64,000 bases of DNA from Rhodothermales bacterium (GTDB lineage: Bacteria; Bacteroidota; Rhodothermia; Rhodothermales; UBA10348). Below are positions 18,448-24,504 of this stretch, piece by piece. A program made the position numbers and the translations under genes. Under the pieces are notes generated by a model that ran no database searches, had not been told where the DNA came from, and saw nothing but the letters and a program-made list of their open reading frames with translations. Location of the stretch: NCBI GenBank assembly GCA_028284865.1, contig JANQQV010000015.1, positions 1 to 64,000 of the forward strand. Reading direction: 5' to 3'. Position 1 is the first letter of the stretch, and every line of letters starts with the position of its first letter.

Positions 18448-18765
18448 TCACTCTTTCTCGGATTCGACTTCCTCGACTTCTACATCTTTCACTTCTTCAG
18501 CCACGCGCTCGACGATCACGTCGACGTCTGTGACCAGTGCGGCCAGTGCACCCACCGCCGCAAGAGTTGGCATAAGGAATACGGCCGCCGTTGCGCCACC
18601 TACACCAACTGAAAGCGGAAACTCGAGCATGGTGCGTCCATCCTTACGAATCGTGACGCGACGGGCATTTCCCTCTTCGATGATCTCTTTGACCTTGCCG
18701 ACGAGCTGGTTGCCCTTGACCTTCATTTCGTCCATCTGAGTGCGGACAGTCTCCTTGTCAATCAT
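18448..18765 (-). CDS. DUF4342 domain protein, 105 aa
   Basis: Small protein with the DUF4342 pattern: an N-terminal helical segment (MIDKETVRTQMDEMKVKG), then GNARRVTIRKDGRTMLEFPLSVGV, a hydrophobic stretch rich in Ala/Leu/Val (about residues 58-83) and a very acidic C-terminal tail. The hydrophobic stretch could sit in the membrane. Function unknown. It stands alone with about 120 bp to the threonine dehydratase start, and is divergent from the pilin-like gene at 19034. Confidence 0.8.
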   Translation of the reverse strand: MIDKETVRTQMDEMKVKGNQLVGKVKEIIEEGNARRVTIRKDGRTMLEFPLSVGVGGATAAVFLMPTLAAVGALAALVTDVDVIVERVAEEVKDVEVEEVESEKE

Positions 18766-19033
18766 CGATAAGCCCCCTGAAAAGAAAATTATTGGGTTGG
18801 AATACGAAAGGGCTTACGTCTCGAAATCGCCCTTGTTGCGTCCTCAGGGCCAATAATGCTGTGATTGCTAGATGGGAGGGCTCCGGAATATGATCCTTCA
18901 CATTATCTTCACATAAGAAAGTTTTAAGCCCGGGAAGCCTCCGACGATACAGGACCCAGAACGAATTTTCCGAATGAAGTGCGTTCTACAACACAATACC
19001 TGATTTCCCACAATAGAACTTGGAGGTTCACCA

Positions 19034-19477
19034 ATGGGTCAGCAGCAACTTCTCCTTCTCGTACTCGGTATCGTTATCGTCGGCCTGGCCGTCGTAGTTG
19101 GTATCCAGGCATTCTCTGAAAACCAGAAGCAGGCTAACGCCGATCAGATGGTTAACGACGCTATCCGCATCGCATCTGACGCACAGGCTTGGAAACTGAA
19201 GCCAGGCGCCTTTGGCGGTGGTGCTTCAGCAACCAACTGGACGGGTCTTGACTTCGGTCAGATCGGTTACACGGTTGGCGATCAGGGTCTGCATCCTGGT
19301 ACGGACGCAGCAGCCGATCAGTACGAAAACCTCAACGCTGTCTATGATATCGCTCTGGACGATGAGGAACTGACGATTACCGGTACCAGCTTCGACGCCG
19401 CTGGCGACGCCCTTAACACGGTCGTTGTTGTAGTCGACGGTACGACTCCTGCAGACATCGCCACGACGATCAACTAA
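19034..19477 (+). CDS. Pilin-like protein 1 (MGQQQ family), 147 aa
   Basis: Short N-terminal hydrophobic helix protein. The N-terminus is MGQQQLLLLVLGIVIVGLAV, i.e. a two-residue Met-Gly leader before a glutamine run and one continuous hydrophobic helix to about residue 27, then a polar coil (FSENQKQANADQM) and a globular domain with many Asp, Thr and Gly. This resembles a class III or type IV pilin helix, but it lacks the usual basic leader and the Glu at +5. A strong Shine-Dalgarno (TTGGAGG at about 19019-19026) precedes the ATG. A strong terminator follows, and a second copy with the same N-terminus is downstream. Presumed to be the major subunit because it has its own strong RBS and terminator; that is inference. 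Confidence 0.8.
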   Translation: MGQQQLLLLVLGIVIVGLAVVVGIQAFSENQKQANADQMVNDAIRIASDAQAWKLKPGAFGGGASATNWTGLDFGQIGYTVGDQGLHPGTDAAADQYENLNAVYDIALDDEELTITGTSFDAAGDALNTVVVVVDGTTPADIATTIN

Positions 19478-19534
19478 TCGTCTGATGTCCTAAGGAACTG
19501 ACGTGACTTCGGTCACAATCAGTCAGTGATCTTG

Positions 19535-19569
19535 GCGCGGGGCCTGCGAAAGCAGGCCCCGCGCTTTTT
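19535..19569 (+). terminator. Strong intrinsic terminator after pilin-like gene 1
   Basis: A perfect 13-bp stem (19535-19547 with 19552-19564) with a GAAA tetraloop, followed by TTTTTG. This is a textbook terminator. It separates the first pilin-like gene from pilin-like gene 2 and the assembly genes, so the first gene can be expressed at a much higher level. Confidence 0.95.
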
Positions 19570-19732
19570 GTATACACCCGTTTCCGGGGGTGGAGCTTTG
19601 GCGGGAATCGAGAGGAAGGACGAGACGGACGATGGATGATCGACCCCATCATTAAGAAGTACCCCACGCCGCCGATACTCAGGACATCCGGGATTCCCTT
19701 GTCCTGGCACCATTCATCAACCATCGGACGCG

Positions 19733-20143
19733 ATGGGACAGCAACAACTTCTTCTACTTGTCATCGGAGTGATCATCGCCGGTCTGGCGGTCGTTTCCGG
19801 AATCACCGCATTCCAGGAAAAGATGCGCCAGATGGAGATGGACCACATCGTGAACAGGAATCTGAAGATTGCCTCGGCCGCCGCTCTCTGGAAGACCAAG
19901 CGGGATCCGTATGACGGAGGCAATGCCTCGTATTCCGGGTTGTCGGAAAACGGACTGGCGAGATTGAATCTGGAGGTGGACACCGGCAGGGCCGTATTCG
20001 AGCTGACAGAGGCCGACGGCCAGTCTCTCATCATTACCGGTGTAAGCACGGAGTATCCCGAAATCGGGGCCAGAACTTATGTCGACAGCTACGATGTGGA
20101 CTCCACGATCGTCAGCTTTGACAGCGACTACACGATTGAATAG
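19733..20143 (+). CDS. Pilin-like protein 2 (MGQQQ family), 136 aa
   Basis: Paralogue of the upstream pilin-like gene: the N-terminal MGQQQLLLLVIGVIIAGLAVVSGI has the same two-residue leader, Gln run and hydrophobic helix, and both continue with a charged coil and an Ala-rich segment ending near KIASAAALWK (first copy: RIASDAQAWK). The C-terminal globular parts differ. It starts 255 bp after the first gene and is 23 bp from the GspF-class gene, so it is probably co-transcribed with the assembly machinery and may be a minor pilin. No RBS as strong as that of the first copy is seen. Confidence 0.78.
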   Translation: MGQQQLLLLVIGVIIAGLAVVSGITAFQEKMRQMEMDHIVNRNLKIASAAALWKTKRDPYDGGNASYSGLSENGLARLNLEVDTGRAVFELTEADGQSLIITGVSTEYPEIGARTYVDSYDVDSTIVSFDSDYTIE

Positions 20144-20166
20144 CGCACCTATCTGAAAAAAGCACG

Positions 20167-21516
20167 ATGGCAATCAAGGAATTCAGATTCAACGGTATCA
20201 GTCAGGTCGGGCAACCGGTCCAGGGTACCGTGTTCGCGCCCAATCATAAGGCTGCTCGCAAACGTGTTGAAGCGCTTGCCGAGCGTCACTCATTCCGCAC
20301 GCAAAGTATTGACCAGCGCCTGACCTATCTCTACAAGGTTCGCCATTTGAATGGCAAGGTCATCGAAGGGGAGCAGAAGGCCTTTTCCGAAGAAGAATTG
20401 CGGACCGCCCTGACCAAAATGGGGCTCGACGTCATCAAGGTGCAGAAGAAGCTCTTTGACGTACAGCGCAAACCCCCTTCAACGGATCTCATCATGTTCG
20501 TCCGCCTGTCGGCGAACCTGCTGAAAGAAAAACTTCCATTCGACGAGGTACTCAACCTCCTGGTGAACGACGTCTCTTCCCGCAGCCTCAAACAGGTTAT
20601 CCGTGACCTGAACGCTGATCTGAAAGGGGGAATGGAGGCGCAGCAGGCCTTCATGAAACAGGGCCACATGCTGGGCAAGTTCACTGCATACATGCTCGGT
20701 ATCGCTTCGCAGACGGGTAACATGTCCGAGATCTACGAAGCCACCGCGCGCTTCATGGAACGTCAGAACGAATTCCGAAAGAGCGTTCGAAGCGCCATGG
20801 TCACGCCCGCCATTACGCTGGTCATCCTGATGGCCACGCTGGTCTTTTACGTCTGGTACATCTTCCCGCAGACGGCCGGGCTGTTCGAGAACTTCGATAT
20901 CGACCTCCCGCCCATGACCCAGGGAACGCTTGATTTCTCCAAATGGATGGATGAAAACTGGTATTGGGTATTCCTGATAGCGGGAGGGGGCATCGGTGGA
21001 ATCGTCGCCTTCTTCAAGTCAGACAAGGGAGAATTCCTGGCTCATCGGTTCATGATCAAGATTCCGATCATCGGAACGCTCCTGCTCAAGTTGAACATCG
21101 AAATTTTCTGTCGCGTCTTTGCCGTTCTCTACTCAGGCTCAGGTGAGAACATTTCTGTTATCAGAATTGCCGCGGAGGCTTCGGGCAACCGCTTTATCGA
21201 GCATCGGGTCAAGACCATCACGATTCCAATGATGGTGGCTCAAGGTGCTGACCTGGTTAAGTCCATGGAGGCCTCGGGCGTGTTTACCTCGATGGCCTTG
21301 GCCCGATTCCGTTCGGGTGCCGAGACAGGAAACGTCCGGGCGAGCGCCCGGCAGATGGCCGACTACTACGAGAACGAGACTTCGCTCAAATTGAAAGCGG
21401 TCGTCGAGATGATCCAGACCATCGTCGCGCTGATCATCACCGTGGCCATCATGGCCCTGACCATTCTTTCTTCGGAACTGGCTTTGGTTCAGCCATCTGC
21501 AGCCGATTTCATGTAG
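20167..21516 (+). CDS. Type II/IV secretion inner-membrane platform protein (GspF/PilC class), 449 aa
   Basis: Polytopic inner-membrane protein that anchors the assembly ATPase in pilus and type II secretion systems. The two T2SSF helical domains are visible: the first with LSANLLKEKLPFDEVLNLL, the second with FCRVFAVLYSGSGENISVIRIA and FRSGAETGNVRASA, each followed by membrane segments (TPAITLVILMATLVFYVWYIF; QTIVALIITVAIMALTILSS). The N-terminus holds two copies of the short motif normally found once in these proteins (residues about 5-47 and 55-98, each with G-x-V-x-G-x and an A-x-S/F helix). Located 23 bp after pilin-like gene 2 and directly before the ATPase gene. Confidence 0.9.
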   Translation: MAIKEFRFNGISQVGQPVQGTVFAPNHKAARKRVEALAERHSFRTQSIDQRLTYLYKVRHLNGKVIEGEQKAFSEEELRTALTKMGLDVIKVQKKLFDVQRKPPSTDLIMFVRLSANLLKEKLPFDEVLNLLVNDVSSRSLKQVIRDLNADLKGGMEAQQAFMKQGHMLGKFTAYMLGIASQTGNMSEIYEATARFMERQNEFRKSVRSAMVTPAITLVILMATLVFYVWYIFPQTAGLFENFDIDLPPMTQGTLDFSKWMDENWYWVFLIAGGGIGGIVAFFKSDKGEFLAHRFMIKIPIIGTLLLKLNIEIFCRVFAVLYSGSGENISVIRIAAEASGNRFIEHRVKTITIPMMVAQGADLVKSMEASGVFTSMALARFRSGAETGNVRASARQMADYYENETSLKLKAVVEMIQTIVALIITVAIMALTILSSELALVQPSAADFM

Positions 21517-21570
21517 GAAGACCCCGGTTAATTCCCGCTGGTGGGAGCCAGCAGCCTTTTCATCCCATTC

Positions 21571-24504
21571 ATGGGCAAACGCAAATTCGACATATCGCTG
21601 TTCTCGGGACGCTCGCGATCCGGTGATCGCAAGCCGAAGCCGTCACCTGCGGCTCAGCGTGACAAGAAGCTGGTCAAGGAAATGATCAGTGAGTTGAGTG
21701 AGATGTCGCTGGAGGACATGATGGACGCACTCAGCGCCCTCGATCCACCAGCAGGCAGCGTTCCACCCCCTACAAGTCCGGCTCCTGAGCTGCCCAAGGT
21801 CAGCCTTGACGACGTTTATCGCGCCAGCGAAGAGGCATGGGAGGAAGGTCAGTTTTCCGACGATCCGGTTGAAGCAGATGATATTGCAGGAGCTGTTGAT
21901 TCGTTTCTGGAATTCCACCCAGAGAGTGAACCGGAGGCTGATGACGCATTCGCATCCTTCGACGACGATCAGGAGACTCCGCAGCCCGAACCGGATCTCC
22001 CGATGGGCAACGAGGAAATGCCGTACGACTCACCCGTTTCGGGCGTTGTCCGGGATGAGATCGTTTTGGCGCTCTTGCAGTCCGAAATGGTCACGATGTC
22101 TCAGGTATTCGATGCTATTCGCGACCGCAATGGCGACCAGGAGCTCTGGCGTATACTGGAACAGCATCCGGAGTTGAATGCTCTCGAGATTCGGTCAGCG
22201 GTTGTAGCACAGCGAGGATATGCTTTCCAGCCCTACCTCGAGGCGGCACCCACCCAGTCATTCATCCAGAGCATCATGGAGGTTGTTCCTCCTGCTGATC
22301 TGGCCCGCTTCATTGGAGCCGGCCTGCTCCCCATTCAGATGGACCTGGATGTCGATCATGTGGAGTACTCCATGGTCGTCCTGTCGAGTGATCCGTTGGA
22401 TCGACGCGTTCAGTCTGTTTTGCTTTCGTCACCTGTGCCTGTCATATGTCGATTTGCCCAGGACGCAGTGATCCGGGAATCACTGGATTCCGTTCGGGAA
22501 TGGCTTGAGCAGGATGGCTATGAGGTCGACTCCTTCGAAGCCACGTCGTTCGAGGCCAGCGTGGAGCCCGTCATGTTGGCCGATGCGCCTAATATCGACG
22601 AAACGCCGACGTTGGAGCCCGTCGATGAACTTCCCACCGAAACGCCTGAAGAGGCGCCGGCCAAAGAAGGGCCGGAGGCCAGACGCACGTCGCGACGCAA
22701 GGATCGGAAGAGTCGTTCCCGATTCGATCGCGTGGTCAAACACTTGATTGCTGATGGAACCATCACGGACAAGCATGTTGCCGAGGCCTCCCAGATTGCG
22801 GAAAGCCAGGGAAGTGAACTTGCACTCTGGCGAATCGTCGCCGACCTGCCAGGCGTAGACCGGGAAAAAGTCTACGAAGCCGCGGCTCAGGTCTACGCAT
22901 TCAAGAAGGAGACCATCGGTCCAGGCCGTCCGGATCACGACTTTGTCCGGTTGACCATGGAGACCCTGGCCGAGGAGCATCACGAAGAGCTGCTCGAAAA
23001 ACTGCTCGTCCCGTTCGAGCATACCATCGACTTTGATACAGGGAGCGGTCGCGTTGTTTTCGTGACACCGGACCCGACATCGCCCGAGATCAACAAGCTC
23101 GTTCACGAACTGGATCTGGGACGATTCGAACTCCGCTACGCTTCTGAACAGGAAGTCCTTCGTCTCTACGACGAACTCTTTCCGCGCAAAAACGAGTATC
23201 TCGAGCGCATCACGGAAGAGACCGATGCCTTCGATCTGGGCATGTCGTACGACGACGAAGACGCGATGCTTGACGAGGATGCCCTCGAAGCAGAGATCAG
23301 TCGTTCCAAGCTCATCAATCTGTTTGAAGCGGCCCTTGTTGAAGCCACTCGCCAGGGCGTATCGGATGTCCACATCTATCCCAATCCCAATCGTCAGGTC
23401 GAAATCCACTTCCGCGTGGATGGTCGTCTGAAGAAGTGGCATACGGAAGAGAAGGTGCACCCTGAGGCCTTCCTCGCTGTCGTGAAGGACAATTCGACCA
23501 ACGTTGACCGTTTCGAGCGCGATGCCGCACAGGATGGATTCATCCAGCGCGATATCGATGGCGCTCTGATTCGATTCCGTGTTTCCATTCTGCCGATTGC
23601 CACGGCAAACCAGGAAATCCGCGCTGAGAGCATCGTCATCCGTATTCTGGATGACCGAAAGGTGCTCACGGACATTACCAAACTGGGGATGTTGGACGTT
23701 GCCCTGGAGAACTTCAACAAGGCCATCCGCCAGCCACACGGGATGGTCATCCTCACCGGTCCTACGGGTTCAGGTAAGTCGACTACGCTGGTGGCAGCGT
23801 TGTACCAGGTGGTGACTCCAGAAGTGAACGTTCTCACGGTTGAGGATCCGGTTGAGTATATCATCAAGGGCGTGCGCCAGATCAAACTCAGCCACAAACT
23901 GGACCTCGAGGGTGCGCTGCGCGCCATCCTGCGTCATGACCCGGATATCGTGATGGTCGGGGAGATGCGCGACCGCCAGACAGCCGAATTGGCCATCAAG
24001 CTGGCCAACACGGGTCACCTCACTTTCTCGACGCTTCACACGAACGACGCCCCGGCTGCCGTTTCCCGTCTGTACAAGATGGGTGTCGAGCCCTTCCTGA
24101 TTGCGTATGCCATCAACCTCGTTGTTGCGCAGCGCCTGATCCGGGTCGTATGTCCGGATTGCAAGGAAGTCGATGAGGATCCGGATCGTACGCTGCTCAG
24201 AGGTCTCGGTTGGAGCGATGAAGAGATCGATGAGAACACGATCTACAAGGCCAATCGCGGCAGTGGATGTCCAACGTGCAACGGCAATGGCTATAAGGGC
24301 CGTCGCGCCGTCTGTGAGACCCTGTATTTCACTTCCGAAATCCGGACTATGGTGGCAGAGTCAGCCGAAGCAATCGACGAAGACGCCATTCGGGATCAGG
24401 CCGTCAAGGATGGTATGCTCACCCTGGCTGATTCCGCTCGCGTGCTCGTCAACATGGGCGAGACCACGGTCGAGGAAATGGTCCGCATGACGGCTAGCGA
24501 ATAA
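21571..24504 (+). CDS. GspE/PilB-class assembly ATPase with long duplicated N-terminus, 977 aa
   Basis: Hexameric ATPase that powers pilin assembly or type II secretion. Walker A GPTGSGKST is at about residues 730-738, the Asp box HDPDIVMVGEMRDRQTAE follows, and there is a tetracysteine zinc site (CPDC at 861-864, CPTC at 900-903), all typical of GspE/PilB. The first about 600 residues are longer than usual: a disordered acidic/proline segment, then two regions that resemble N-terminal GspE/MshEN domains in tandem (about 150-310 and 385-560), with a charged RRTSRRKDRKSR linker between them. Common GspE is 500-600 aa. Start: ATG 21571 or GTG 21541 are both possible, with no clear ribosome binding site. 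Convergent with the aminotransferase downstream. Confidence 0.9.
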   Translation: MGKRKFDISLFSGRSRSGDRKPKPSPAAQRDKKLVKEMISELSEMSLEDMMDALSALDPPAGSVPPPTSPAPELPKVSLDDVYRASEEAWEEGQFSDDPVEADDIAGAVDSFLEFHPESEPEADDAFASFDDDQETPQPEPDLPMGNEEMPYDSPVSGVVRDEIVLALLQSEMVTMSQVFDAIRDRNGDQELWRILEQHPELNALEIRSAVVAQRGYAFQPYLEAAPTQSFIQSIMEVVPPADLARFIGAGLLPIQMDLDVDHVEYSMVVLSSDPLDRRVQSVLLSSPVPVICRFAQDAVIRESLDSVREWLEQDGYEVDSFEATSFEASVEPVMLADAPNIDETPTLEPVDELPTETPEEAPAKEGPEARRTSRRKDRKSRSRFDRVVKHLIADGTITDKHVAEASQIAESQGSELALWRIVADLPGVDREKVYEAAAQVYAFKKETIGPGRPDHDFVRLTMETLAEEHHEELLEKLLVPFEHTIDFDTGSGRVVFVTPDPTSPEINKLVHELDLGRFELRYASEQEVLRLYDELFPRKNEYLERITEETDAFDLGMSYDDEDAMLDEDALEAEISRSKLINLFEAALVEATRQGVSDVHIYPNPNRQVEIHFRVDGRLKKWHTEEKVHPEAFLAVVKDNSTNVDRFERDAAQDGFIQRDIDGALIRFRVSILPIATANQEIRAESIVIRILDDRKVLTDITKLGMLDVALENFNKAIRQPHGMVILTGPTGSGKSTTLVAALYQVVTPEVNVLTVEDPVEYIIKGVRQIKLSHKLDLEGALRAILRHDPDIVMVGEMRDRQTAELAIKLANTGHLTFSTLHTNDAPAAVSRLYKMGVEPFLIAYAINLVVAQRLIRVVCPDCKEVDEDPDRTLLRGLGWSDEEIDENTIYKANRGSGCPTCNGNGYKGRRAVCETLYFTSEIRTMVAESAEAIDEDAIRDQAVKDGMLTLADSARVLVNMGETTVEEMVRMTASE

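Follow-up and report, generated by a model that had tools for sequence, protein, structure and literature searches.

Can a type IV filament be built from pilins that carry no leader peptide? To our knowledge, the field regards leader removal by a dedicated membrane aspartyl protease as a universal and defining step in the assembly of type IV pili and of the T2SS, and all the well-studied type IV pili known to us depend on a leader peptide and a prepilin peptidase. In the window (the whole 64,000-nucleotide stretch of Rhodothermales DNA analysed here), two neighbouring genes share the N-terminus MGQQQLLLLV followed by a single hydrophobic helix, and T2SSF and T2SSE genes lie 3' of both on the same strand. 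The source assembly (3.48 Mb, 28 contigs, 97.7% complete) has its relatives among the Rhodothermia.

The MGQQQ genes and their start codons

The first-pass annotation of this DNA had described two adjacent MGQQQ genes, a GspF/PilC-class platform gene and a GspE/PilB-class ATPase gene 3' of them, and a strong terminator between the pilins. All of these were located.

19022..19026, plus strand: Shine-Dalgarno sequence GGAGG of pilin 1, 7 nt 5' of the MGQQQ ATG (from the sequence)
19034..19477, plus strand: pilin 1, predicted leaderless type IV pilin of the MGQQQ kind, 147 aa (open reading frame; AlphaFold pilin fold)
19534..19565, plus strand: intrinsic terminator 3' of pilin 1, a 14-bp stem followed by a T run
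19733..20143, plus strand: pilin 2, predicted leaderless type IV pilin of the MGQQQ kind, 136 aa, directly 5' of the platform gene
20167..21516, plus strand: PilC/GspF-class inner-membrane platform protein, 449 aa (PF00482, 2.9e-29, two repeats)
21571..24504, plus strand: PilB/GspE-class assembly ATPase with a long N-terminal region (PF00437, 4.6e-98; alternative GTG start at 21541)

The terminator region folds with z = -5.6, and pilin 1 may plausibly be read from it as the putative abundant (major) subunit.

In both window reading frames, the first start codon to follow the in-frame stop is the ATG of MGQQQ. A genome scan with pilin 2 gave 80 loci, from which 126 MGQQQ genes were gathered. 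The first five residues served as the selection criterion, so the invariance of MGQQQ is in part a result of the selection; residues 6-8 and 19 were unselected and are nearly invariant too. Reading upstream from the ATG, an in-frame stop is reached within 5 codons in 79 of the 126 genes and within 12 codons in 115, and purine-rich sites like the GGAGG of pilin 1 precede the ATG of many homologues. A class III leader ends in Gly, and known leaders have 6-26 residues (PMC4471445). With stops so near, most of the 126 genes have no room for a leader of this length, and in place of a class III signal peptide only two residues precede the Gln run. Judged from these sequences, MGQQQ is the true start of the pilins. 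One might suppose that the start codons were wrongly assigned and that an ordinary leader precedes them, pointing to the 11 genes without a stop in the first 12 upstream codons and to L064, which has an upstream start, but the upstream stops, the window reading frames and the ribosome-binding sites leave this explanation practically no chance.

Residues 3-24 contain no charged residue in 125 of the 126 homologues, and therefore the Glu5 of canonical pilins is absent, as had been noticed at first pass for the window genes. Gly2 is present throughout. The only charge N-terminal to the helix is that of the amino group; on the C-terminal side, the mean charge of the flank is -1.2 over the MGQQQ set.

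Predicted pilin fold and the rest of the machine

AlphaFold, given a 115-sequence alignment, modelled the pilin as a helix (residues 2-55) and a four-stranded sheet with pLDDT of 95.1 and pTM of 0.83. A Foldseek search of the PDB with this model gave no significant match. When the matches were realigned with VIA-align, type IV pilins and pseudopilins filled the top nine rows, which begin with PilE of Pseudomonas (Z 9.1) and end with PilA of B. cenocepacia (Z 4.8). Z scores below 8 may reflect a common arrangement, so the weight rests on the nine best rows being all of one kind. A search of the PDB with the pilin profile at E<=10 gave three matches, all pilins; the best E of 0.33 is weak alone, though specific. 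ComP_DUS, a type IV minor pilin model, matched three homologues (best 1.8e-4). Pfam and NCBIfam scans of the pilins themselves yielded nothing usable, and weak MacB_PCD matches were taken as chance. Several pilin pairs and the profile alignment agree on a register in which mature residue n corresponds to model residue n+3, placing canonical Phe1 at Gln4 and Glu5 at Leu8; the register was drawn from the C-terminal half of the helix and the head and is inexact. On the strength of the modelled fold, the MGQQQ genes are predicted to encode type IV pilins. The pilus-like identity, the odd leader and the co-expression with the machinery proposed at first pass are supported.

The view of the locus as a compact island does not hold, since the remaining machine parts sit on other contigs. 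The window platform gene is the sole T2SSF gene of the genome. Three T2SSE genes are present: that of the window, a second PilB/GspE-like gene on C17, and a PilT-like gene on C18 (315.8 bits; model cut-off 319.1). After the PilT-like gene on C18 come genes for a 644-aa protein, a 333-aa PilO-like protein and a PilQ-like secretin. By profile, the top PDB match of the 644-aa protein is PilN of the Myxococcus type IV pilus (T4P) machine (8.3e-10), and that of the 333-aa protein is PilO of the same machine (0.014). PilM was assigned by position alone within the 644-aa protein, so PilM and PilN are apparently fused. The secretin matches PF00263 (6.8e-26); its best NCBIfam model is TIGR02515 (PilQ; 4.3e-23, below the model's cut-off), followed by MshL. 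The first-pass statement that secretin, retraction ATPase and prepilin peptidase are missing is therefore right for the window, and the first two have counterparts elsewhere in the genome.

In Ignavibacteria and Kryptoniota loci, the pilin, platform, ATPase and PilT-like genes are contiguous. A separation of the homologues from GspF/E genes, which the first-pass annotation had named as evidence against its reading, is not general: of 75 loci in which this could be tested, 61 have a platform gene downstream of MGQQQ. Orphan MGQQQ genes do occur, two of them in the source genome. The pilins of G004, apparently without a platform gene, were rejected as a case of this kind; the platform and ATPase reading frames are fragmented there, probably by assembly errors.

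Operons of the relatives contain a recurring triplet of leaderless, minor-pilin-like genes of I/V-like, J/W-like and K/X-like kind, assigned to I, J and K from gene order, helix and size. Their products start with MSQTL, MPQTL or MNTGE (I/V-like), MQILLDH or MHVIFDN (J/W-like) and MGK, MGN or MGR (K/X-like), and all begin within a few residues of a hydrophobic helix. Met-Gly is invariant in the K-like family; in the I- and J-like proteins Met is followed mostly by Ala, Ser, Gln, Trp, Pro, Asn or His, without Gly2. Two K-like genes lie on C18 of the source genome; this genome encodes large GspK-like proteins and contains a leaderless GspK-like gene. Minor-pilin profiles matched no pilin in the PDB by sequence, and the AlphaFold model of a J-like protein was poor (pLDDT 52.6) and was not used as evidence.

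These parts might instead form a T2SS-like secretion pseudopilus, in which the leaderless pilins make a short periplasmic piston and no surface pilus. The GspE/GspF homologues and the I/J/K-like minor set are shared with the T2SS; minor subunits of this kind occur in both the T2SS and type IVa pili, GspF is the best-scoring model for the platform protein, and the GspK-like proteins are large. The PilT-like ATPase speaks against this interpretation, as do the secretin, PilN and PilO matches, which all point to type IV pili, and unlike the T2SS the MGQQQ machine has neither GspO nor leader-bearing pseudopilins. Canonical T2SS-type loci with the peptidase model PF01478 stand apart in some MGQQQ genomes. 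We therefore hold a secretion pseudopilus to be unlikely, while giving it some weight. The choice between piston and surface pilus bears on function and leaves the loss of the leader unaffected. For a surface pilus, surface adhesion, twitching or DNA uptake would be likely functions.

Distribution of the prepilin peptidase

The genome-wide check for pilD, pilQ and pilT suggested at first pass was thus positive for PilQ-like and PilT-like genes; for the peptidase, PF01478 gave no match in the source genome even at E<=10. No canonical prepilin (PF07963) was found in this genome either. The PF01478 model matched 12 of 14 control genomes, archaea included; the search works by homology and is blind to a non-homologous peptidase.

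We surveyed 146 Rhodothermia genomes, each at least 85% complete. MGQQQ occurred in 104, T2SSF in 104 (two weak matches left out) and PF01478 in 13. A reversed control pattern gave sporadic matches only, and the frequency of MGQQQ is far beyond chance. MGQQQ and T2SSF were found together in 98 genomes (p = 1e-21), and PF01478 was independent of MGQQQ (p = 0.35) and accompanied by a distinct, shorter canonical GspF (11/13 genomes with PF01478 vs. 3/133 without; p = 2.5e-12); these p-values and counts treat the genomes as independent, and the genomes are phylogenetically related. Counted by genus, 41 of the 55 genera had MGQQQ and 11 had PF01478. PF01478 was absent from 93 of the 104 MGQQQ genomes, several of which are single-contig. 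Three Rhodothermia genomes have the canonical GspF yet no PF01478, so the search may miss some peptidases.

PF07963 was found in none of 12 peptidase-negative genomes and in all 6 tested genomes that have the peptidase; among those listed, it lay close to the peptidase. Canonical leader-bearing prepilins occurred only at peptidase or canonical-GspF loci. In the platform tree, the MGQQQ-type proteins and canonical GspF form two groups with branch support of 100/100. Where the peptidase is present, it goes with a second, canonical system whose pilins bear leaders, and not with MGQQQ.

The MGQQQ family ranges over Rhodothermia, Balneolia, Ignavibacteria, Kryptoniota, KSB1 and Neomarinimicrobiota. 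PF01478 is present in 15 and absent in 29 of 44 MGQQQ genomes outside Rhodothermia (Ignavibacteria, KSB1, Kryptoniota, Neomarinimicrobiota and others), a count to which the completeness figures, which cover the Rhodothermia genomes, do not extend. Among the 14 peptidase regions fetched outside the class, a canonical prepilin lies nearby in nine and was not found near PF01478 in five, where the peptidase could in principle serve the MGQQQ pilins. (L144 in the peptidase-region output is a Rhodothermia genome.)

Probable assembly without a leader

We consider it probable that the window holds the pilin-platform-ATPase operon of a complete type IVa pilus-like filament machine whose pilins have lost the leader and for which a prepilin peptidase is unneeded. 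From the sequences compared, a large Bacteroidota-related group seems to make type IV pilus-like filaments whose subunits start right at the assembly helix, and thereby to have given up the leader peptide as well as the prepilin peptidase. On balance, and less confidently than for the window operon, we also favour the wider proposal of a lineage-wide filament class, ancestral in the Rhodothermia-Balneolia-Ignavibacteria-KSB1 part of the FCB group, in which all pilins, major and minor alike, would be made mature, processing and N-methylation would be unneeded and the housekeeping methionine aminopeptidase would replace PilD. For the short leader, the first-pass annotation had left open whether a non-canonical peptidase acts or cleavage is lacking. 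The data speak for the second option: the prepilin peptidase is absent from the whole genome, and across the class its occurrence bears no relation to MGQQQ genes.

Methionine aminopeptidase is known to take off an initial Met that Gly follows. With Gly as residue 2, the pilins would probably lose Met to this enzyme and expose Gly2, and the mature N-terminus would be Gly-Gln-Gln-Gln. The N-terminal helix may insert N-in without a positively charged leader, aided by the net-negative C-terminal flank. PilC and PilB would then extrude the pilins through the PilQ-like secretin, and the PilT-like ATPase perhaps retracts the filament. In canonical pilins, Phe1 N-methylation and Glu5 act in subunit docking, and we speculate that the conserved Gln run takes over this role.

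A dedicated peptidase outside the A24 family might instead cut behind Gly2; MG would then be a leader of two residues, and the mature protein would start at Gln3, perhaps cyclised to pyroglutamate. The conservation of Gly2, which resembles the canonical Gly-1 and is directly followed by the Gln run, would fit such a cut. Two residues, however, are far short of the known range of leaders, the examined operons showed no candidate peptidase, most of the I- and J-like minor pilins lack Gly at position 2, and the structural register sets canonical residue 1 at Gln4 rather than Gln3. We regard this explanation as improbable. Still harder to sustain is processing by a divergent or missed A24 peptidase, or by one borrowed from another system of the same genome as proposed for MSHA. 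MSHA loci likewise lack their own prepilin peptidase, yet their host genomes always held that of another system (PMC6668835), whereas most MGQQQ genomes have none. The three genomes with canonical GspF and no PF01478 would allow for a missed enzyme; the breadth of the control matches, the absence of PF01478 from most MGQQQ genomes and the lack of any leader to cleave make it very improbable.

If assembly without leader cleavage is true, a peptidase-free bacterial machine would test the need for a free Phe1, its N-methyl group and Glu5 in polymerisation. MGQQQ offers a simple sequence tag for finding such pilins, which signal-peptide predictors and type IV filament detection models based on class III leaders would tend to miss. 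We found no earlier description of leaderless pilins, MGQQQ or a missing prepilin peptidase of this kind in the open-access literature, subscription papers and preprints being outside the scope of the search.

From the homology of its motor, platform and secretin, and from the pilin fold predicted for its subunits, we expect the system to operate in the manner of a type IVa pilus. It shares with that pilus a PilB/PilC-class motor and platform, a PilQ-like secretin and V/W/X-like minor pilins, and has candidate counterparts of PilT, PilN and PilO. It differs in having MGQQQ pilins without leader or Glu5, no PilD, an apparent PilM-PilN fusion and genes spread over several loci. Because neither a class III leader nor the peptidase was found, we do not place it as a canonical member. 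The 'T2SS' of Cytophaga hutchinsonii, from the related phylum Bacteroidetes, is likewise a divergent type IV filament machine, but its cluster has a Peptidase_A24 protein, CHU_3197 (PMC5553014). A 2014 survey named Nanoarchaeota as the only phylum in which prepilins occur and no peptidase could be detected; these pilins are archaeal, and no leader loss is reported for them in its available text (PMC4471445).

In Melioribacter roseus, pilT, pilQ, pilB and pilC were present and pilA and pilD were not found; its authors took the pil set as incomplete in 2013, and the pilin was not recognised (PMC3534657). A leaderless system would explain such unnamed or 'missing' pilins in these groups. The pil set of M. 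roseus, known to us from the published report, matches the prediction for a leaderless system, and Melioribacteraceae assemblies carry MGQQQ operons.

Solitary MGQQQ pilin genes

This genome carries further MGQQQ (leaderless type IV pilin) genes on two other contigs, C21 and C27, and another was found on a contig binned as Patescibacteria (L-numbers denote fetched loci).

L022:5222-5710, minus strand, MGQQQ pilin gene, C21
L023:7110-7565, plus strand, MGQQQ pilin gene, C27
L064:6001-6411, plus strand, MGQQQ gene, Patescibacteria-binned contig

The C21 and C27 genes (n = 2) are solitary, distant from every platform or ATPase gene of this genome, and may possibly encode alternative or tip pilins. 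No machine genes occur in the L064 neighbourhood, and its MGQQQ gene may reflect either mis-binning or transfer.

Candidate machine components on contigs C17 and C18

L020:8009-10983, minus strand, second PilB/GspE-like ATPase of this genome, C17
L021:15365-17779, minus strand, large K-like protein starting MGKGVL, C18
L147:2-2473, minus strand, large K-like protein starting MGKGVL, C18

The C17 ATPase gene is adjoined on its upstream side by a gene of unknown family, and no pilin was found in the L020 neighbourhood; the ATPase is possibly a paralogue serving a second mode of the machine. On C18, two large K-like (minor-pilin-like) genes lie in tandem upstream of the PilT-like gene. Both MGKGVL proteins contain SDK-rich repeat tracts and are candidate tip or adhesin subunits.

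Related operons and the neighbour of pilin 1

L134:2831-6704, plus strand, Balneolia-type operon without an MGQQQ gene
Window 18448-18765, minus strand, DUF4342 protein, 105 aa

In the L134 operon, leaderless MGK, MGTGQ and MVAQ pilin-like genes precede the same platform and ATPase as in MGQQQ operons. The single-contig genome G018 has two MGQQQ systems side by side (L149, L026), the second of which is divergent and comprises pilin, platform, ATPase, I/J/K-like, PilT-like and secretin genes. In the window, the DUF4342 gene, which no line of evidence ties to the machine, is transcribed away from pilin 1.
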